From contig NZ_CP095061.1 of assembly GCF_022921055.1 (NCBI RefSeq), positions 1,899,501 to 1,963,500 of the forward strand: a stretch of DNA of 64,000 nt. Reading direction: 5' to 3'. Below are positions 2,814-11,346 of this stretch, piece by piece; position 1 is the stretch's first letter; every line of letters starts with the position of its first letter. The notes below the pieces were generated by a model that was not told where the DNA came from, did no database searches, and worked only from the letters and a program-made list of their open reading frames with translations. This DNA comes from Hymenobacter volaticus (GTDB taxonomy: Bacteria > Bacteroidota > Bacteroidia > Cytophagales > Hymenobacteraceae). The translations under genes and the position numbers were made by a program.

Positions 2814-2843
2814 TTGTGTGGTAAAAAAGCTGCCTTACCTTTG
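2814..2843 (+). promoter_or_regulatory. Bacteroidota-type promoter of the trp operon
   Basis: A perfect -7 element TACCTTTG lies at 2836-2843 and a -33 TTG at 2814-2816, separated by 19 bases, matching the Bacteroidota consensus TTG-N19-21-TAnnTTTG. The predicted transcript would start about 2850, some 25 bases before the leader peptide ATG at 2874. Confidence 0.7.
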
Positions 2844-2873
2844 TGCCACTCAACGCCCTTTTATTCTTTGGCA

Positions 2874-2951
2874 ATGACCGTTTCAATGACTCAGCAAGCT
2901 TGGTGGTGGCCTCTCGGAAATTCCGGACGGGACCTCCTGTGCGTGCGTTAA
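2874..2951 (+). CDS. trpL: trp operon leader peptide (25 aa, three consecutive Trp codons)
   Basis: A 25-codon ORF starts ATG-ACC and ends TAA at 2949-2951; a second in-frame ATG is at 2886. Codons 10-12 (2901-2909) are TGG-TGG-TGG, giving Gln-Ala-Trp-Trp-Trp-Pro, which is extreme for so short a peptide and identifies it as a tryptophan sensor. A ribosome stalled on these codons would leave the antiterminator strand at 2924-2931 free, whereas one that reaches the stop codon would cover it. It lies between the promoter at 2836 and the terminator at 2987, directly ahead of trpE. It is too short for routine gene callers. Function is inferred from the arrangement. Confidence 0.85.
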   Translation: MTVSMTQQAWWWPLGNSGRDLLCVR

Positions 2952-2998
2952 GATCCTCGAAACTCTTCTCCGCAACGACTCTACAGAAAGCCCGGCCG
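2924..2998 (+). promoter_or_regulatory. predicted antiterminator pairing of the trp attenuator
   Basis: CGGACGGG at 2924-2931, inside the leader ORF, can pair with CCCGGCCG at 2991-2998, the left arm of the terminator, with seven of eight positions matched. The two structures are mutually exclusive. Pairing was found by eye; no folding energies were computed. Confidence 0.6.
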
Positions 2999-3018
2999 CT
3001 CCGCCGGGCTTTTTTATT
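2987..3018 (+). terminator. trp attenuator terminator
   Basis: A perfect 10-bp stem (2987-2996 with 3003-3012), a 6-base loop and a following T-run form a classical intrinsic terminator. It ends about 34 bases before the trpE start, so termination here would stop the whole operon. Confidence 0.85.
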
Positions 3019-3051: not shown

Positions 3052-4467
3052 ATGAAACAGTTCCAGCTCCACACTCGCCACCTCCGCGTCCTAGCCGACA
3101 CCGTAACCCCCGTAGGTCTCTACCTGCGTCTGCGCGACCGGTACCCTAATTGCTTGCTGCTGGAAAGCTCCGATTACCACGGCCAGCAAAACGCCTTCAG
3201 CTACCTCGCCTTCGACCCCCTGGCCCGTTTCGAGTTGAGCGGCAACGAATTGAAGCTAACTTTTCCCGACGACAGCGTCGAAACCGAAACCTTGACCGAG
3301 CCTCGGCTGGCTCTTACACGTCTTCAGGAATTCGCTGGTTGCTTCCAAACGGAGCCTACTGAGTACGACTTCATTACGGGCGGCTTGTTCGGCTACATCG
3401 GGTATGAGGGCGTGCAGTACTTCGAGGATTTGAACTTGCGCACCGACAAGCAGGCCGCCGGGCAGATTCCGAGTGTTATGTACGGCACTTACCGCTACGT
3501 TATTGCCGTCAACCATTTTCGCAACGAACTGTACGTGTTCGAGCACACGCTAGCCGGCGAGGAAACCGACCCCGAAGGCCTCACGCACCTCGTCAATCTG
3601 GTCCGCAACCCTTCATTGCCTGATTACAAATTCTCGACGGTAGGAGAGGAAAGCACCAACCAAACCGATGAGGAATTCCTGAAGGTGTTGGCCGCTGGCC
3701 GTCAACATTGCCACCAGGGCAACGTGTTTCAGATTGTGCTTTCGCGCCGCTTTCAGCAAGGATTTAGCGGCGACGAGTTCAACGTGTACCGGGCGCTGCG
3801 TTCCATCAACCCGTCGCCGTACCTGTTCTATTTCGACTACGGTAACTTCAAAATCTTCGGGTCGTCGCCCGAAACGCAACTCCTTATTAAAGGGCGGGAA
3901 GCCAGCCTGTTTCCAATTGCGGGCACCTTCCGCCGCACCGGCCACGACGCCGAGGATGCAGCTCTGGCCCAAAAGCTCGCCGACGACCCCAAGGAAAACG
4001 CCGAGCACACCATGCTTGTTGACCTGGCCCGCAACGACCTCGCCCGCCACGGCGACAACGTGCGGGTGAAGACCTTCCGCGAAATCCAGTTCTACTCGCA
4101 CGTCATTCACTTGGTCAGCGAAGTAAACGCCACGCTAAGCCCAGGTGCTAGCCCGCTGCAAGTAGTGGCCGATACCTTCCCGGCGGGCACGCTCTCCGGG
4201 GCACCCAAGCACCGCGCCATGCAGCTCATCGATGGCTTGGAGCCCACAGCCCGTGGCTACTACGGCGGCGCCATCGGCTACCTCGGCTTCAACGGCGACT
4301 TCAACCACGCCATCATGATTCGCTCTTTCCTGAGCACGGCGGGTCAGCTGTACTTCCAGGCGGGTGCCGGCGTGGTAGCCGCTTCCGATATCAACTCAGA
4401 ACTCAACGAAGTGCACCACAAACTAGCGGCACTCCGCAAGGCTCTGAAAGAAGCCGAGGCTGTTTAA
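3052..4467 (+). CDS. trpE: anthranilate synthase component I
   Basis: 471 residues, normal length. The chorismate-utilising domain is complete: FQIVLSRRF, GSSPETQLL, PIAGTFRRTG, DLARNDLARHG and the C-terminal SGAPKHRAMQLI and YYGGAIGYLGF are all present. TrpE converts chorismate to anthranilate using ammonia from TrpG. It is the first structural gene behind the leader at 2874 and the terminator at 2987, so its transcription is probably controlled by Trp-tRNA supply. Pabs family members are similar, but the location at the head of a full trp operon decides for trpE. Confidence 0.95.
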   Translation: MKQFQLHTRHLRVLADTVTPVGLYLRLRDRYPNCLLLESSDYHGQQNAFSYLAFDPLARFELSGNELKLTFPDDSVETETLTEPRLALTRLQEFAGCFQTEPTEYDFITGGLFGYIGYEGVQYFEDLNLRTDKQAAGQIPSVMYGTYRYVIAVNHFRNELYVFEHTLAGEETDPEGLTHLVNLVRNPSLPDYKFSTVGEESTNQTDEEFLKVLAAGRQHCHQGNVFQIVLSRRFQQGFSGDEFNVYRALRSINPSPYLFYFDYGNFKIFGSSPETQLLIKGREASLFPIAGTFRRTGHDAEDAALAQKLADDPKENAEHTMLVDLARNDLARHGDNVRVKTFREIQFYSHVIHLVSEVNATLSPGASPLQVVADTFPAGTLSGAPKHRAMQLIDGLEPTARGYYGGAIGYLGFNGDFNHAIMIRSFLSTAGQLYFQAGAGVVAASDINSELNEVHHKLAALRKALKEAEAV

Positions 4468-4609: not shown

Positions 4610-5176
4610 ATGAAAATCCTGGTTCTCGACAACTACGATTCCTTCACCTACAACCTCGTGCAAGTGTTGCGGGAGTTGGGCCACGGTGAAGCCACTACGG
4701 TTATTCGCAACGATAAACTAGCCGTAGACGATGTAGAAGAATATGACGCCGTGCTGCTTTCGCCGGGTCCTGGTTTGCCTTCGGAAGCCGGCCTCATGCC
4801 GGAAATTATCCGTCGCTACGCGCCTACTAAGAAGATTTTGGGCGTCTGCCTCGGGCACCAGGGATTGGCAGAAAGCTTCGGCGGCGAGCTATATAATATG
4901 CCGGAAGTGCTGCACGGTATTGCCACCAAGGCCGAAGTGACAGCCGACGATAAGTTGTTTGACGGACTGCCCACGCAGTTTCAAGTAGGGCGCTACCACT
5001 CGTGGAGCGTGCGCCCCGAGTCGGTGCCAACCGAGCTGGAAGTAACCGCCCTCGATGCCGAAGGCCAGGTGCTAGCCTTCCGCCACCGCGACTACGACGT
5101 GCGCGGCGTGCAATTTCACCCCGAATCCATTCTGACGGAGCACGGCCACCAGATGCTACGCAACTGGCTGGCCTAG
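4610..5176 (+). CDS. trpG: anthranilate synthase component II (glutamine amidotransferase)
   Basis: 188 residues, a stand-alone class I glutamine amidotransferase. LDNYDSFTYNLVQ at the N-terminus, the oxyanion region LSPGPGLP, the nucleophile Cys in GVCLGHQ and the His/Glu pair in QFHPESILTEHG are all intact. It supplies ammonia to TrpE. The 142-base gap from trpE contains no convincing terminator or promoter, so the operon most likely continues through it. Confidence 0.95.
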   Translation: MKILVLDNYDSFTYNLVQVLRELGHGEATTVIRNDKLAVDDVEEYDAVLLSPGPGLPSEAGLMPEIIRRYAPTKKILGVCLGHQGLAESFGGELYNMPEVLHGIATKAEVTADDKLFDGLPTQFQVGRYHSWSVRPESVPTELEVTALDAEGQVLAFRHRDYDVRGVQFHPESILTEHGHQMLRNWLA

Positions 5177-5273
5177 CGCTAAGCACCAGCATCGGCCCGA
5201 TAGTGGTGCGGCCTGCTGAGGTTACTTGTCTTATTGTTTATCGACTCGGCAAACGTCTACTTGGCGTTACAGA

Positions 5274-6287
5274 ATGAAACACCTTCTCAACATCCTTTTC
5301 GACCAGCAACTGCTTTCCCACGCCGAGGCGCGGCAGGCCATGTTGCACATCGGGCAGGGCGAGGCCAATCCGGCGGAAATGGCGGCCTTCATGGCCGTGT
5401 ACCGGATGCGCCCCATTTCCGTGCCCGAGCTAGCCGGCTTCCGCGAAGCGCTGCTCAGCCTAAGCCGCGACCCGGACCTAGGCACCCACGACACCGTAGA
5501 TATAGTAGGTACCGGCGGCGACGGCAAAGACACGCTCAACATTAGTACATTGGCTTGCTTTGTGGTAGCGGGTGCGGGCTACAAGGTTACCAAGCACGGC
5601 AACATCGGCGTATCGTCGGTGTGCGGCTCGTCGGATGTGCTAGCGCAGCTCGGGGTTGACTTTGCAGTAAGCAACGACGTGCTGAAGCGGCAGTTGGAGC
5701 AAGCCAATATCTGCTTTCTACACGCGCCCTCGTTTCACCCGGCCATGCGCCATGCCGGACCAGTGCGACGCGAGTTGGGCGTGCGCACGTTCTTCAATAT
5801 TTTGGGTCCACTCGTAAACCCGGCCCGGCCGCGCTACCAAGTAGCTGGCACGTTTAGCCTAGAACTGTTGCGCCTCTACCACTACTTGCTGCAACAAACC
5901 GATGCGTGCTACACTGTAGTGCATGCGCTGGATGGCTATGACGAGTTGTCCCTCACTGGCGCCGCCAAACTAGCCACTAGCACAGGCGAGCAAATGGTGT
6001 CGGCCGCCGATTTTAACCTGGCCAGCACCATGCCCGCCGAGCTAGCGGGCGGCCGCAACGCGGCGGAATCAGCCAAGCTCTTCCTAAATGTATTAGAAGG
6101 CAACGCCACCCGGCCTCAGCGCGACGTCGTGACGGCCAATGCCGCCCTGGCCATTCGCTGCCTGGAACCAAGCTTCAGCCTCGGCGAAGCTTTGGCCGCT
6201 GCGCAAGAGTCGTTGGACTCCGGGCGGGCGCGATTGGCGTTGCGGGAACTGCTAGCGGCCACGCACAGCAAAGCTGTAGCTGTGTAA
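5274..6287 (+). CDS. trpD: anthranilate phosphoribosyltransferase
   Basis: 337 residues from the ATG at 5274 (MKHLLNILF); an in-frame upstream ATG at 5226 would add a tail without family resemblance. The PRPP/anthranilate site motif VGTGGDGKDTLNIST, KHGNIGVSSVCGSSD and RELGVRTFFNILGPLVNP are present. It transfers the phosphoribosyl group of PRPP to anthranilate, third enzyme of the pathway by gene order. Confidence 0.95.
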   Translation: MKHLLNILFDQQLLSHAEARQAMLHIGQGEANPAEMAAFMAVYRMRPISVPELAGFREALLSLSRDPDLGTHDTVDIVGTGGDGKDTLNISTLACFVVAGAGYKVTKHGNIGVSSVCGSSDVLAQLGVDFAVSNDVLKRQLEQANICFLHAPSFHPAMRHAGPVRRELGVRTFFNILGPLVNPARPRYQVAGTFSLELLRLYHYLLQQTDACYTVVHALDGYDELSLTGAAKLATSTGEQMVSAADFNLASTMPAELAGGRNAAESAKLFLNVLEGNATRPQRDVVTANAALAIRCLEPSFSLGEALAAAQESLDSGRARLALRELLAATHSKAVAV

Positions 6288-6414
6288 GAACCCGAAACGA
6301 CAGCCGTGGAGTTAACGGTTGACTTAATAACCTTTACCCTTCAACAAAGCGCGAAGCATCACCACTTTCGCGCCACATCTAAACCGCCGCGAGCTGAAAG
6401 CTCACGCTACTGAA

Positions 6415-7230
6415 ATGCCGACCATCCTCGATAAAATCATCACGCATAAGCGCCAAGAGGTAATTGACCGCCAAGCGCTAGTGCCCGTGAAACTGCTGGA
6501 AAAGAGCCTCTACATGGATTCGCAGCCGCTGAGCTTGCGGCACTATCTGCTGCGCGACGACTTGAGCGGCATCATCGCCGAGTTCAAGCGTAAGTCGCCG
6601 AGCAAGGGCGTGATTAATGCCCACGCGCCAGTGGAGCGGACCACGTTGGGCTACATGCAAGCGGGGGCCTCGGCCCTGTCGGTGCTCACCGATACAGAGT
6701 TTTTTGGAGGCAAGAACGAGGATTTGACTGTGGCCCGGCGTTACAATTTCTGCCCTATTCTGCGCAAGGATTTCGTGGTGGATGAGTACCAGATTCTAGA
6801 AGCGAAAAGCATTGGTGCCGACGCTGTACTGCTGATTGCAGCCGTGCTGACGGGTGAGGAAGTGCTACGTTTGGGCCGTTTCGCCAAGAGCCTCGGCTTG
6901 GAAGTGTTGCTTGAAATCCACAACGCCGAAGAACTCGACAAAACCTTGCACCCCGACGCCGTGAGCTTGGTGGGCGTCAATAACCGCAACCTTCACGACT
7001 TCTCCGTTAGCCTCGATATTTCCGGTGAGCTGGCCCAACGCATTCCCAACGACTACGTGAAAGTGACGGAAAGCGGACTAAGCTCAGCAGCCGACATCGA
7101 AGCCTTGCGTGCCGTTGGGTACCGGGGGTTCCTTATCGGCGAAACCTTTATGCGCCACGGCCGCCCCGAAAAAGCCTGTGCTGCCCTGGTTCAGCAGCTC
7201 CGTGCCACCGAAGCTGTAACCTTGCTCTAA
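6415..7230 (+). CDS. trpC: indole-3-glycerol-phosphate synthase
   Basis: 271 residues, monofunctional (not fused to TrpF). TIM-barrel motifs include AEFKRKSPSKG, LRKDFVVDEYQI, GVNNRNLHDF and VTESGLSS, covering the catalytic Lys and Glu residues of the family. It closes the ring of CdRP to give indole-3-glycerol phosphate. It lies 127 bases after trpD and 33 bases before trpF. Confidence 0.95.
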   Translation: MPTILDKIITHKRQEVIDRQALVPVKLLEKSLYMDSQPLSLRHYLLRDDLSGIIAEFKRKSPSKGVINAHAPVERTTLGYMQAGASALSVLTDTEFFGGKNEDLTVARRYNFCPILRKDFVVDEYQILEAKSIGADAVLLIAAVLTGEEVLRLGRFAKSLGLEVLLEIHNAEELDKTLHPDAVSLVGVNNRNLHDFSVSLDISGELAQRIPNDYVKVTESGLSSAADIEALRAVGYRGFLIGETFMRHGRPEKACAALVQQLRATEAVTLL

Positions 7231-7263
7231 GGCTGATTCGTGCCGTCGCACTCTCTTCTAACC

Positions 7264-7902
7264 ATGACCCCAACAGCGCCTTATTTGAAAGTTTGCGGCA
7301 TGCGGCAGTCAGAAAATCTGGCCGCTGTTGCCGCCTTGCGGCCGGACTTTTTGGGGTTCATCTTCTACCCAAAGTCCAGCCGGTACGTGGGCACGCAGCT
7401 CAGCGAAACAGAGCTAGCGGCGTTGCCAACCGAGATTCGCAAGGTGGGGGTGTTCGTGGATGAAAGTGAGGACGCGGTGCTGGCGCGCGTAGCGGAGCTA
7501 GGGCTGGATTTGGTGCAGTTGCACGGTCACGAAACGCCGGCGCAATGCGCGGCTATTAGAGCCGCAGGCGTACCGGTTATCAAGGCGTTTTCGGTAGGAG
7601 AGGAGTTCAACTTCTATGTACTGCAGCCTTACGTGAGTAGCGTAGACTACTTTCTTTTCGACACGAAAGGCAGCCAGCCGGGCGGCAACGGTACTGCCTT
7701 CGATTGGAACTTGCTAACTGCCTACAACTTGCCGGTGCCTTATTTCCTGGCTGGCGGCCTCAGTTTAGAGCAAGCCGATGCACTGCGGAACTTGCGCCTT
7801 CCGGGCTTGTTTGCACTGGACCTGAATAGCCGCTTCGAGATTGAACCGGGTTTGAAAGACGTTGAAATGCTGCGGCAACTATTTACTGAACTACGAACCT
7901 GA
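7264..7902 (+). CDS. trpF: phosphoribosylanthranilate isomerase
   Basis: 212 residues from the ATG at 7264 (MTPTAPYLKVCGM); a GTG at 7240 would add eight residues that look unrelated. KVCGM carries the catalytic Cys, GFIFYPKSSRYV and LVQLHG follow, and the second phosphate-binding part FLAGGLSLEQA and ALDLNSRFE is present. It catalyses the Amadori rearrangement of PRA to CdRP. Confidence 0.94.
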   Translation: MTPTAPYLKVCGMRQSENLAAVAALRPDFLGFIFYPKSSRYVGTQLSETELAALPTEIRKVGVFVDESEDAVLARVAELGLDLVQLHGHETPAQCAAIRAAGVPVIKAFSVGEEFNFYVLQPYVSSVDYFLFDTKGSQPGGNGTAFDWNLLTAYNLPVPYFLAGGLSLEQADALRNLRLPGLFALDLNSRFEIEPGLKDVEMLRQLFTELRT

Positions 7903-8007
7903 CCAAGCGGCATGCACTGATTCAAGATGGAATGCCGCAATGTTTTGCGCAATCCCTTGAACGACTCTGCTGCCTCCTGCGTCACCCACAGCGAAACCCT
8001 ACGAGCC

Positions 8008-9207
8008 ATGACTCCTACAACCTATAAAGAACCCACTGCCCGCGGCTACTACGGCCAATTCGGGGGCGCTTTCATCCCCGAAATGCTTTATCCCAACGTG
8101 GAAGAGTTGCGCGACAACTACCTTACCATCCTCGCCGACCCGGAGTTTCAGCGCGAGTACCAGCAGCTCCTCCGCGACTTTGTAGGGCGGCCCACACCGC
8201 TATTCGAGGCCAAGCGGCTGTCGAAGAAGTATAACACGCGCATCTTTCTGAAGCGGGAAGACCTTTGCCACACCGGCGCCCACAAGGTCAACAACACGGT
8301 GGGGCAAATTCTGCTAGCGCAGCGCCTCGGCAAAACGCGCATCATTGCCGAAACGGGCGCCGGGCAGCACGGTGTAGCCACGGCCACCGTGTGCGCGCTG
8401 ATGGGCATGGAGTGTATCGTGTATATGGGCTCGGTGGACATGGAACGTCAGCGCCCCAATGTGGAGCGAATGCGCTTGCTCGGCGCCGAGGTTCGCCCCG
8501 CTACCAGCGGTAGCCAAACCCTCAAAGACGCCACCAACGAAGCCATCCGCGACTGGATTTCTAACCCCGTTGATACCCACTATATCATTGGCTCGGTGGT
8601 AGGCCCACACCCTTATCCGGATTTGGTAGCGCGCTTGCAAGCTATTATCAGCGAGGAAATGCGCAAGCAGTTGCTGGAAAAGACGGGTTCGGAGTTGCCG
8701 CAATATGTGGTGGCTTGCGTGGGCGGCGGTTCCAACGCGGCCGGTGCGTTTTATCACTTCCTCGATGAGCCTTCGGTGCAACTGATTGCGGTAGAAGCGG
8801 CCGGGCACGGCATTACCTCGGGTCATTCGGCGGCTACGTCGGTGTTAGGCAAACCAGGTATCATTCACGGCTCGCGCACGCTGCTTATGCAAGATGAGGA
8901 TGGCCAAATTACCGAGCCGTATTCGTTGTCAGCGGGTCTGGACTATCCGGGTATTGGACCGCTGCACGCGTATCTGGCGGCGGAAGGCCGGGCGCGATTC
9001 ATTTCCATTGAAGACGAACCAGCTTTGCGGGCAGTAGCCGAATGCAGCCGCTTGGAGGGCATTATTCCGGCTCTGGAAACTGCCCACGCACTGGCTGCGC
9101 TCGGTCAGCTAGGCGCCGGTCCCGATGATGTGGTCGTCATCAACCTTTCCGGCCGCGGCGACAAGGACCTGGAAACCTACATGAAGTACGCTGATACTAT
9201 TAAGTAA
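8008..9207 (+). CDS. trpB: tryptophan synthase beta chain
   Basis: 399 residues from the ATG at 8008; the open frame extends upstream to 7927 but the family start is at [16 protein letters not shown]. The PLP lysine lies in [10 protein letters not shown], followed by [14 protein letters not shown] and the phosphate cup [10 protein letters not shown]. It condenses indole with serine to give tryptophan and channels indole from TrpA, encoded 95 bases downstream. Confidence 0.96.
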
Positions 9208-9302
9208 CGATTCGCCCGCCGAGGGCGCGGAAGGTTGTGCGAAAGCCAAGGAACCTCCGCGCCCTTAGTGTAACCCTTCGCGCCAGCCGCGGAAACCCGA
9301 TA

Positions 9303-10085
9303 ATGAACAACCGAATCCAACAAGCTTTCCAAAAGCAGGGCAAGAAGCTGCTCAATGTGTACTTCACGGCGGGCTATCCACGTCTGCACGACACAGTGCC
9401 GGTGCTCAAAGCCCTGACCACTGCCGGTGCCGACCTCATCGAAATTGGGATGCCGTTTTCTGACCCCCTCGCCGACGGTCCCGTGATTCAGCAGAGCAGC
9501 ACTGTGGCGTTGCAAAACGGTATGAACATGCGGGTGCTGTTCACGCAGCTCAAAGACATCCGCAATGAGGTGCCCGAAACGCCGATTTTGCTGATGGGTT
9601 ACCTGAACCCGGTGATGCAATTCGGGGTGGAAAACTTCTGCCGCGAAGCTGCCGCTGCGGGCGTCGATGGCGTTATCCTGCCCGACTTGCCGCTCGACGA
9701 TTACGTGGCTGAGTATCAGGAAATCTTCCGGCGTTACAACCTGAAGCCAGTGTTTCTGATTACGCCCCAAACGGCTCCTTCCCGCATCCGTCGCATCGAT
9801 GAACTAACGGATTCGTTTCTGTACCTCGTTTCTGGGCCGGGAACCACGGGCGGCGCTAACACGCAGGCCGAAGGCGTGCAGGATGCATATTTCCAGCGCA
9901 TCGAGGACATGCAGCTGCGAAATCCGCGCCTCATCGGTTTCGGCATTGCCGATAAAGCGTCGTTTCAGCACGCTTGCCAGTACGCCGAAGGAGCCATCAT
10001 TGGCTCGGCTCTGATTAAGGCGCTGGATGGTACCGATGATGCACCGGCGGCTGCCGCCAAGTTTGTTTCCTCCGTTCTTAATTAA
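9303..10085 (+). CDS. trpA: tryptophan synthase alpha chain
   Basis: 260 residues from the ATG at 9303. The catalytic Glu and phosphate region lie in DLIEIGMPFSDPLADGP, and the catalytic Asp in GVDGVILPDLPLDDY. FLYLVSGPGTTGG near residue 180 is the phosphate loop. It cleaves indole-3-glycerol phosphate to indole for TrpB. It ends the classical trp set; the next gene, a DAHP synthase, is 247 bases away across a palindromic repeat. Confidence 0.95.
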   Translation: MNNRIQQAFQKQGKKLLNVYFTAGYPRLHDTVPVLKALTTAGADLIEIGMPFSDPLADGPVIQQSSTVALQNGMNMRVLFTQLKDIRNEVPETPILLMGYLNPVMQFGVENFCREAAAAGVDGVILPDLPLDDYVAEYQEIFRRYNLKPVFLITPQTAPSRIRRIDELTDSFLYLVSGPGTTGGANTQAEGVQDAYFQRIEDMQLRNPRLIGFGIADKASFQHACQYAEGAIIGSALIKALDGTDDAPAAAAKFVSSVLN

Positions 10086-10332: not shown

Positions 10333-11346
10333 GTGATAATTCAACTCGACCCTCACATCACCGAAGCCGCGAAGGCGGATATTCTGGCGCAAATTAAGGC
10401 TGTCAAGTACAAAGCGACGGACGTAACCACGCAGCGGGCGCACTACCTCGTGGCCATCGGTAAGGCAGATTTCGATTTGCGCACCATCGGCCAACTGCCG
10501 GGTATCCTTGACATTCATCGGGTGTCAGATGATTATAAGCTGGTGAGCCGCAAGTGGCGCGTGCGCCCCACGGTGCTCGACCTCGGCGACGGGGTGCGCA
10601 TTGGGGAAGGCAGCCTGACGTTGGCCGCCGGACCATGCAGCATCGAGAGCGAGCCGCAGATGGAGCTGATGATGCAGCACCTCATCGACAACGACGTGCG
10701 CATTATGCGCGGGGGCGTGTTCAAGCCTCGTTCGTCGCCGTACTCGTTTCGCGGTTTGGGCATGGATGGGTTGAAACTATTCCACCAGATGGCCCGGACC
10801 CGCGGCATTAAAATCATAACCGAAGTGATGCAGGTGTCGCAGGTAGAAGAGATGCACGACTACGTGGACGTGTTTCAGGTAGGCGCCCGTAACACGCAGA
10901 ACTTCAATTTGCTCGATGCCTTGGGTGGCGTCGATAAGCCAGTGATGATCAAGCGCGGTATCTCGGGCACGCTGGAAGAACTACTCTCGTCGGCAGAGTA
11001 CGTGTTTTCGGGTGGCAACGAGAAGTTGATCTTGTGCGAGCGGGGCATTCGGACCTTTGAAACGGCCAGCCGCAACACCCTTGATTTGAACGCCGTGCCT
11101 ATTCTGAAAGAGAAAACGCACTTGCCTGTCATCGTGGATCCTTCGCACGGCATTGGCATTCGGGAGTATGTGCCCACAATGGCGCTAGCCGGCGTAATGG
11201 CCGGTGCCGATGGTATCATCTACGAGGCCCACGAAAAGCCCGAAGAAGCTGCTTCCGACGGAGCCCAAACCTTGAACTTCGAGGAGTCAGGCCGCCTGAT
11301 TCGCAACCTGCGCAAGGTGTACGCGCTGCGGCAGGAACTAGAGTAG
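10333..11346 (+). CDS. aroF: 3-deoxy-7-phosphoheptulonate (DAHP) synthase, type I beta
   Basis: 337 residues starting at a GTG (10333). Residues 1-70 look like the ferredoxin-like regulatory domain found in Thermotoga-type enzymes; the catalytic barrel begins at SLTLAAGPCSIESE and carries GGVFKPRSSPYSFRGLG, KRGISGTLEE, LCERGIRTFE and VDPSHGIGIRE with its metal and substrate residues. It condenses PEP and erythrose 4-phosphate, the entry to the shikimate pathway, so its position behind trpA couples precursor supply to tryptophan synthesis. The name aroF is conventional; the isoform letter cannot be read from sequence. Confidence 0.88.
   Translation: MIIQLDPHITEAAKADILAQIKAVKYKATDVTTQRAHYLVAIGKADFDLRTIGQLPGILDIHRVSDDYKLVSRKWRVRPTVLDLGDGVRIGEGSLTLAAGPCSIESEPQMELMMQHLIDNDVRIMRGGVFKPRSSPYSFRGLGMDGLKLFHQMARTRGIKIITEVMQVSQVEEMHDYVDVFQVGARNTQNFNLLDALGGVDKPVMIKRGISGTLEELLSSAEYVFSGGNEKLILCERGIRTFETASRNTLDLNAVPILKEKTHLPVIVDPSHGIGIREYVPTMALAGVMAGADGIIYEAHEKPEEAASDGAQTLNFEESGRLIRNLRKVYALRQELE

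Follow-up and report, generated by a model that had tools for sequence, protein, structure and literature searches.

Some attenuators were reportedly predicted in Bacteroidetes/Chlorobi by Vitreschak in 2004, and leaderless cysteine attenuators are known in mycobacteria. A family of trp leaders of Bacteroidota is catalogued in Rfam as Bacteroid-trp (RF01692), which, according to the accessible text of the source, goes back to Weinberg et al., 2010 (PMC2864571); the same element is named in the available portions of two other papers (PMC4977773, PMC6414381). For Flavobacterium psychrophilum, the accessible text of the transcriptome study mentions strong clues for leader-peptide attenuation upstream of amino acid operons; pheA and hisG are named there as genes with structured 5' elements (PMC9723704). 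Given this family and the F. psychrophilum report, the statement of the earlier note on this DNA that such attenuation is far less described in the phylum was too strong, and the idea that the type is undescribed in Bacteroidota was dropped because RF01692 matches Bacteroidota trp leaders. Among the literature matches listed, with most subscription journals outside the coverage, none was an experimental study of a Bacteroidota trp attenuator.

The window, that is, the entire 64,000-nucleotide stretch of Hymenobacter volaticus DNA analyzed here (NZ_CP095061.1, positions 1,899,501 to 1,963,500), fits the description of RF01692 in that it contains a Bacteroidota trp leader with a Trp-tandem ORF. 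RF01692 is likewise a tryptophan peptide leader of Bacteroidota, and its matches lie on Trp-tandem leaders in front of trpE. The model scored above the cut-off in 16 of 40 hand-chosen Bacteroidota loci (2 of 20 and 14 of 20 in the two sets scanned) and gave no match in the six Hymenobacter loci scanned, nor in the window, either at the gathering score (49 bits) or at E<=10. Compared with RF01692, the leaders of Hymenobacter clades 1 and 2 (see below) carry a protector hairpin, their ORF tail is longer and their terminator is a different one. The Hymenobacter form is a divergent, uncatalogued member of a catalogued type of trp leaders, with a variant geometry.

The E. coli type of leader (RF00513, Trp_leader) shares with the window the tandem-Trp leader peptide and the competing antiterminator and terminator in front of trpE; the respective model yields 20.5 bits over positions 2895-3017, half of the gathering score of 41. 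The window differs from this type in that the stop codon is located past the antiterminator strand, no Shine-Dalgarno-like site is seen and the promoter is of the Bacteroidota type. Leaderless Trp leaders are described in the accessible parts of the reports on Sinorhizobium meliloti (PMC7298713) and Streptomyces lividans (trpL1; PMC8079986), and most Bacteroidota outside Hymenobacter are predicted to be alike in this respect. These two organisms belong to other phyla, and the leader in the window differs from theirs by a predicted 26-nt 5' UTR.

The trp locus and conservation of its leader

The features of the locus are collected in Table 1. The genes downstream of the attenuator are trp genes according to profile models, which fits a Trp sensor. 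In particular, trpG, trpD, trpC, trpB and trpA each have one or more fitting NCBIfam models whose cut-off they exceed, trpE scores 400 bits with TIGR00564 (cut-off 517.7), and the best match of trpF, phosphoribosylanthranilate isomerase, is also under its cut-off. The closest named relatives are H. norwichensis and H. telluris, with 93% identical TrpE. The preceding gene on the same strand (1241-2680), which shows weak matches to esterase models under their cut-offs, ends ahead of the attenuator promoter.

Table 1. Features of the trp leader, the operon and the gene that follows it in the window.
Feature	Positions	Strand	Basis or remark
Possible weak -33 element TTG	2814-2816	+	may be present
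Bacteroidota-type -7 element TACCTTTG	2836-2843	+	sequence
Predicted transcription start	about 2848	+	predicted from F. johnsoniae promoter data
Predicted 5' UTR, 26 nt	2848..2873	+	predicted from the promoter; no Shine-Dalgarno-like sequence by eye
Leader ORF MTVSMTQQAWWWPLGNSGRDLLCVR and stop, 25 codons	2874..2951	+	ATG 2874, TAA 2949-2951
Sensor, three tandem Trp codons TGGTGGTGG	2901..2909	+	sequence, conservation
Protector hairpin P0	2910..2931	+	C-rich base against GGG, inner stem CGGA:TCCG; would hide the antiterminator strand
Antiterminator strand, region 2, CGGACGGG	2924..2931	+	conserved
Scaffold hairpin between the antiterminator strands	2937..2986	+	5' side formed by the end of the leader ORF and the stop codon
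Intrinsic terminator, regions 3 and 4	2987..3015	+	T run 3010-3015
Region 3, CCCGGCCG	2991-2998	+	within the terminator
trpE, first gene of the operon	3052..4467	+	ATG 3052; best NCBIfam model TIGR00564 trpE_most
trpG, trpD, trpC, trpF, trpB, trpA, in this order	4610..10085	+	NCBIfam models
3-deoxy-7-phosphoheptulonate (DAHP) synthase gene, 3' of trpA	10333..11346	+	NCBIfam

Re-reading of the sequence confirmed the 25-codon leader with its three consecutive TGG codons at the coordinates originally assigned; a second in-frame ATG is found at 2886. All the parts that had been claimed are there, and the promoter begins 216 nt upstream of trpE, slightly beyond the 200 bases within which all of them had been placed. 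The TA..TTTG motif is present in all 22 aligned Hymenobacter sequences; in F. johnsoniae, TAnnTTTG is located at -12 to -5 according to the accessible text of the mapping study (PMC6847099). A generic scan (sigma-70 hexamers and a terminator rule) reported neither a promoter nor a terminator for the region, the latter probably because the T run is partly paired in the stem. A search of the same genome for further combinations of promoter, ORF and TGGTGG yielded 11 matches compared to 10 with the reversed pattern, and by eye the trp site alone looked real. Many clade 1 Hymenobacter share, at the predicted transcription start, a sequence resembling GTTCAACGCCC (ACTCAACGCCC in the window, 2848-2858).

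A short ATG-initiated ORF with adjacent Trp codons within 400 nt upstream of trpE was detected in 74 of 79 named relatives (of 80 loci, the one that lacked upstream DNA is not counted), in 56 of 60 genomes of a phylum sample, 58 of which belong to the same class or nearer and 2 to another, and in 15 of 20 loci from other classes. The reverse strands of these three sets contained 0, 1 and 1 such ORFs, and shuffled sequences contained on average 0.8, 0.65 and 0.4. Among the five misses in the named relatives, two leaders start with GTG (L037, L048) and two carry W-x-W (L046, L054). Within the genus, trpE is found in 100 of 101 genomes, and the leader is present in all 80 of these that were read (79 by script and L200 by hand). 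Conservation of the Trp codons across Hymenobacter and relatives, which the earlier note named as a check of its reading, is thus evident. It is the conservation in relatives that places the attenuator beyond chance, which the window alone does not show. Tandem-Trp leaders in front of trpE span most of the phylum sampled, beyond the loci caught by the Rfam model, and the Hymenobacter alignments are available for a family model.

The Hymenobacter leaders form three clades of 47, 28 and 15 sequences (90 in total, with duplicates and L200 removed), and the window belongs to clade 1. Clades 1 and 2 follow the same plan, in which WWW is followed by the strand CGGACGGG or CGGACCGG (CGGTCCGG in two sequences and TGGACGGG in two), then by CTGTGCG or close variants, the stop codon, a hairpin, and a terminator that starts with GCCCGGCC or nearly so; the stop codon ends 39 or 42 nt past the Trp run. 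In clade 3 (L229-L242 and L041), WW is typical (WWW in two), the end of the stop codon is 24 nt from the Trp run and region 2 is different. Judging from these sequences, the trp attenuator is rebuilt within the genus, in clade 3 versus clades 1 and 2.

Alternative pairings and the position of the ribosome

The leader, the terminator and the alternative pairing are all conserved in relatives, and the element is very probably, as originally proposed, a ribosome-mediated transcription attenuator of the trp operon. Building on the sequence parts, their conservation and the codon-level constraint described here, we infer the transcription start, leader translation, ribosome positions, a kinetic competition and the Trp response as follows. 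RNA polymerase would start near 2848, and a ribosome would start the leader ORF at 2874. When charged tRNA-Trp is low, the ribosome is expected to stall on the Trp codons and to cover the 5' arm of the protector; region 2 would then pair with region 3 with the help of the scaffold, the terminator would not form and trpE would be transcribed. When Trp is ample, the ribosome would reach the stop codon, cover approximately positions 2932-2961 and hold the scaffold open, the protector would re-form behind it and the local terminator would win.

The terminator hairpin (2987-3012) folds at -18.2 kcal/mol. The competing pairing of 2924-2931 with 2991-2998 consists of seven pairs and one A-G mismatch and uses the 5' arm of the terminator; both of its strands are conserved in clades 1 and 2, and the positions previously given for the terminator and for this pairing were right. 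The fold of the entire region in the window is ordinary (z -0.71), and the pairing of regions 2 and 3 alone has there the strength expected from shuffled sequence that is equally rich in GC (z 0.0, p 0.49); the same shuffle test in GC-rich Hymenobacter gives z near 0. In 125 leaders of other lineages, a set of leader-terminator pairs that includes four clade 3 Hymenobacter loci, this pairing beats the shuffles (mean z -2.03, with 65 leaders at p<=0.05).

Folding of the 22 first-aligned sequences up to the terminator loop produced in every case an antiterminator helix that encloses a hairpin built from the end of the leader ORF with its stop codon and from the stretch ahead of the terminator, with details that vary among the sequences. 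In clade 2, 99.8% of the cells of the named structure are paired, a value equaled by 1 of 500 shuffles and compared with 26-56% in slid controls, although the latter comparison is biased toward a structure that was itself obtained from these sequences. The covariation score of this clade was reached by no shuffle; one pair is changed on both sides, as also occurs in 31 of 500 shuffles, and the antiterminator helix is invariant. Column-based pair counts in the first Hymenobacter alignment gained little, because there is almost no variation in the P1 and terminator pairs and the apical stem shifts its register. Across the genus, the antiterminator pairs and the majority of the terminator pairs are nearly constant. 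Thus, the structure is supported by conservation together with changes that mostly affect one side of a pair, and the compensatory changes in both stems that the earlier note suggested looking for are few.

In clades 1 and 2 alike, the protector hairpin immediately follows the Trp codons and folds onto the antiterminator strand, in registers that differ between the two clades. Its energy averages -8.6 compared to -6.1 kcal/mol in shuffles for clade 1 and -5.9 compared to -3.5 kcal/mol for clade 2, and it is individually significant in 11 of 47 and 4 of 28 sequences, respectively (median p 0.12 and 0.14).

The effect of the ribosome was approached with a plain energy model in which the footprint is blocked either on the Trp codons or at the stop, and any pairing of the terminator arm is allowed. 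In the other lineages, stalling favours antitermination by more than 2 kcal/mol over the ribosome at the stop in 106 of the 125 leaders. The same holds for 5 of 24 leaders of Hymenobacter clades 1 and 2 (the window and 23 relatives), or 8 of 24 in another run of the first ribosome-position model; the values for the window are 11.4-11.9 with the ribosome stalled, 10.6 with the ribosome at the stop and 10.9 without a ribosome. In the window, 39 nt lie between the last Trp codon and the stop codon, and the antiterminator strand ends 17 nt short of the stop. The plain model likely fails in Hymenobacter because, with the stop past the antiterminator strand, a ribosome located there leaves the strand unmasked. 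The classical geometry, in which the ribosome at the stop masks this strand as in E. coli trp, is compatible with the performance of the model in other Bacteroidota and with the stop position of Hymenobacter clade 3. For the window, however, it is unlikely, given that region 2 should be free and the energy model fails. The stop codon beyond the antiterminator strand had been taken to fit the classical picture; it rather complicates that picture, as the strand is free in the model and a protector is needed.

A narrower model, written after the failure of the plain one, scores the conserved antiterminator helix only and treats the protector as a competitor. Under this model, the helix gains more with the ribosome on the Trp codons than at the stop in all 47 sequences of clade 1 and all 28 of clade 2, the difference exceeding 2 kcal/mol in 46 and 28 of these, respectively. 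For the helix of the window, the values are -6.8 at best under stalling, -1.0 at the stop and -4.4 without a ribosome. The helix gains even without a ribosome (clade means -3.1 and -7.3), so that the narrower model leaves strong termination of untranslated RNA unexplained. When the scaffold is shuffled, the helix becomes weaker on stalling in 40 of 47 and 26 of 28 sequences; when the 5' arm of the protector is shuffled, 46 of 47 and 27 of 28 sequences have a stronger helix with the ribosome at the stop. We propose from these models, in an after-the-fact account built once the alignment and the failure of the plain model had been seen, that re-formation of the protector together with the ribosome-covered scaffold might restore the switch. 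The shifted stop codon of Hymenobacter is a natural test of whether ribosome masking or the protector hairpin sets termination.

The pattern of substitutions in the leader tail bears on a different possibility, namely that the leader peptide itself acts, in trans or as an arrest peptide on its own ribosome, with only a secondary part for RNA pairing. For Sinorhizobium, the accessible text describes a trp leader peptide that acts in trans (PMC7298713), and the C-terminal SGR(D/E)xLCVR is conserved in clade 1. However, the conservation tracks nucleotides over the paired strands: the antiterminator-strand codons GGA and CGG are invariant in all 47 clade 1 sequences, the codons CTG and GTG change only by amino acid-altering substitutions, and codon 9 after the Trp run encodes N, S, I, T or L. 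Four-fold codons with an invariant third base number 2 of 5 in the leader tail (GGA and CGG) compared to 15 of 136 in trpE, in a small set of 21 sequences. The constraint on the leader tail looks to be mainly on the RNA. Given the nucleotide-level conservation and the quite different peptide ends of clades 2 and 3, we rejected a function of the peptide only as very improbable.

Still less probable is that hairpin 2987-3015 serves as a constitutive terminator or a pause site next to a Trp-rich ORF that is there by coincidence, a reading that would agree with the ordinary single-sequence fold and the chance-level strength of the pairing between regions 2 and 3 in the window. It was rejected because the Trp-tandem ORF occupies the same place in nearly all relatives, compared to about one expected by chance, and in all Hymenobacter genomes read, and because a constitutive terminator between the promoter and trpE would silence the operon; the upstream gene ends ahead of the promoter. 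A tRNA- or protein-sensing leader of the T-box or TRAP type, such as control trp operons in Bacillota, in place of a translating ribosome has a negligible probability and was rejected because Rfam models gave no hit in the window at their gathering scores, the weaker hits did not include a T-box, and the tandem Trp codons would be left unexplained.

Predicted leader starts at or near the transcript 5' end

How the leader starts in a phylum with few Shine-Dalgarno sites is a good question, raised by the earlier note. Transcription starts were placed 12 nt after the first T of TAnnTTTG, in line with the accessible text of the F. johnsoniae mapping (PMC6847099). Among the distinct leaders outside Hymenobacter clades 1 and 2 that have this motif, 65 of 81 begin 0-6 nt from the predicted start (36 of 37 in the named loci and 29 of 44 in the phylum sample), and the remaining 16 begin 12-17 nt from it. 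The corresponding fraction for long ORFs in the same loci is 5 of 26 (Fisher p 3e-8), in a small control that used the slightly stricter motif TAHHTTTG; a further 52 leader candidates, including chance ORFs and second tandem leaders, have no motif in range and were not counted. The F. psychrophilum, B. thetaiotaomicron and F. johnsoniae studies, in their accessible text, treat leaderless mRNAs as the exception, with 5.5% of mRNAs leaderless in F. psychrophilum. In B. thetaiotaomicron about 3.7% have a 5' UTR below 10 nt, and in F. johnsoniae 13% have one of at most 10 nt (PMC6847099).

The leader in the window, with its predicted 26-nt 5' UTR, falls outside the leaderless group, and the 5' UTRs predicted for clades 1 and 2 span 16-39 nt, leaving aside in-frame ATGs before the predicted start. 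We tentatively suggest, at somewhat less than even confidence, that Bacteroidota load the trp-leader ribosome without a Shine-Dalgarno site via an ORF at the transcript 5' end, and that Hymenobacter clades 1 and 2 instead combine a UTR with a late stop, termination being set by the re-forming protector. A near-leaderless start, as predicted, would be a simple answer to early ribosome loading in a phylum that hardly uses Shine-Dalgarno sites. The Hymenobacter geometry and the near-leaderless rule elsewhere in the phylum are points worth a bench test.

Tandem leaders and other candidate attenuators

Upstream of pheA in the same genome (L244), there are two short Phe/Tyr-rich ORFs, MAQQRYFFGFYYFCASA and MRHFAPIFTFFYYPFFYSKN. 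Among the 18 Hymenobacter genomes with this gene (L253-L269 and the genome of the window), 10 carry two Phe/Tyr ORFs, 7 carry one and 1 carries none, and downstream of several of these ORFs lies a hairpin with a T run that folds at about -12 to -23 kcal/mol. By their sequence, the pheA leaders of Hymenobacter look like tandem Phe/Tyr attenuators. In front of hisG of the same genome (L243:1021-1170), TACTTTTG is followed by a 40-codon ORF that ends with HHHQHGHHSSF, about 190 nt upstream of the gene. Downstream of this ORF there are GC-rich stretches, and no hairpin with a T run was found there; the ORF is a candidate His leader. From the pheA and hisG leader ORFs, attenuation appears to be a general habit in the genus.

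Two Trp-tandem ORFs in series are present in three Rufibacter loci (L021, L022 and L023), in Fulvivirga marina (L040) and in a Flammeovirgaceae MAG (L051). In all five loci, about 400 nt upstream of trpE, each Trp-tandem ORF precedes a hairpin that resembles a terminator and has a T run behind it, and these arrangements are predicted to be tandem trp attenuators. The two ORFs of the Salmonella mgtCBR leader sense different signals, not Trp. The tandem attenuators of mgtCBR, as given in the accessible text (PMC3641672), are comparable to these five loci and to the pheA leaders of the genus in having two short ORFs, in contrast to the single trp leader in the window.

In two loci (L056 of Fibrella rubiginis and L087), a gene for tRNA-Pro (cgg) ends a short distance ahead of the Trp leader ORF, with no TAnnTTTG in between. 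In four other loci (L069, L090, L092 and L093), the leader start is at most 6 bases from, or overlaps, the stop codon of an upstream frame; these frames have at least 81 codons and a Lys-rich end, and this arrangement suggests co-transcription and perhaps translational coupling.
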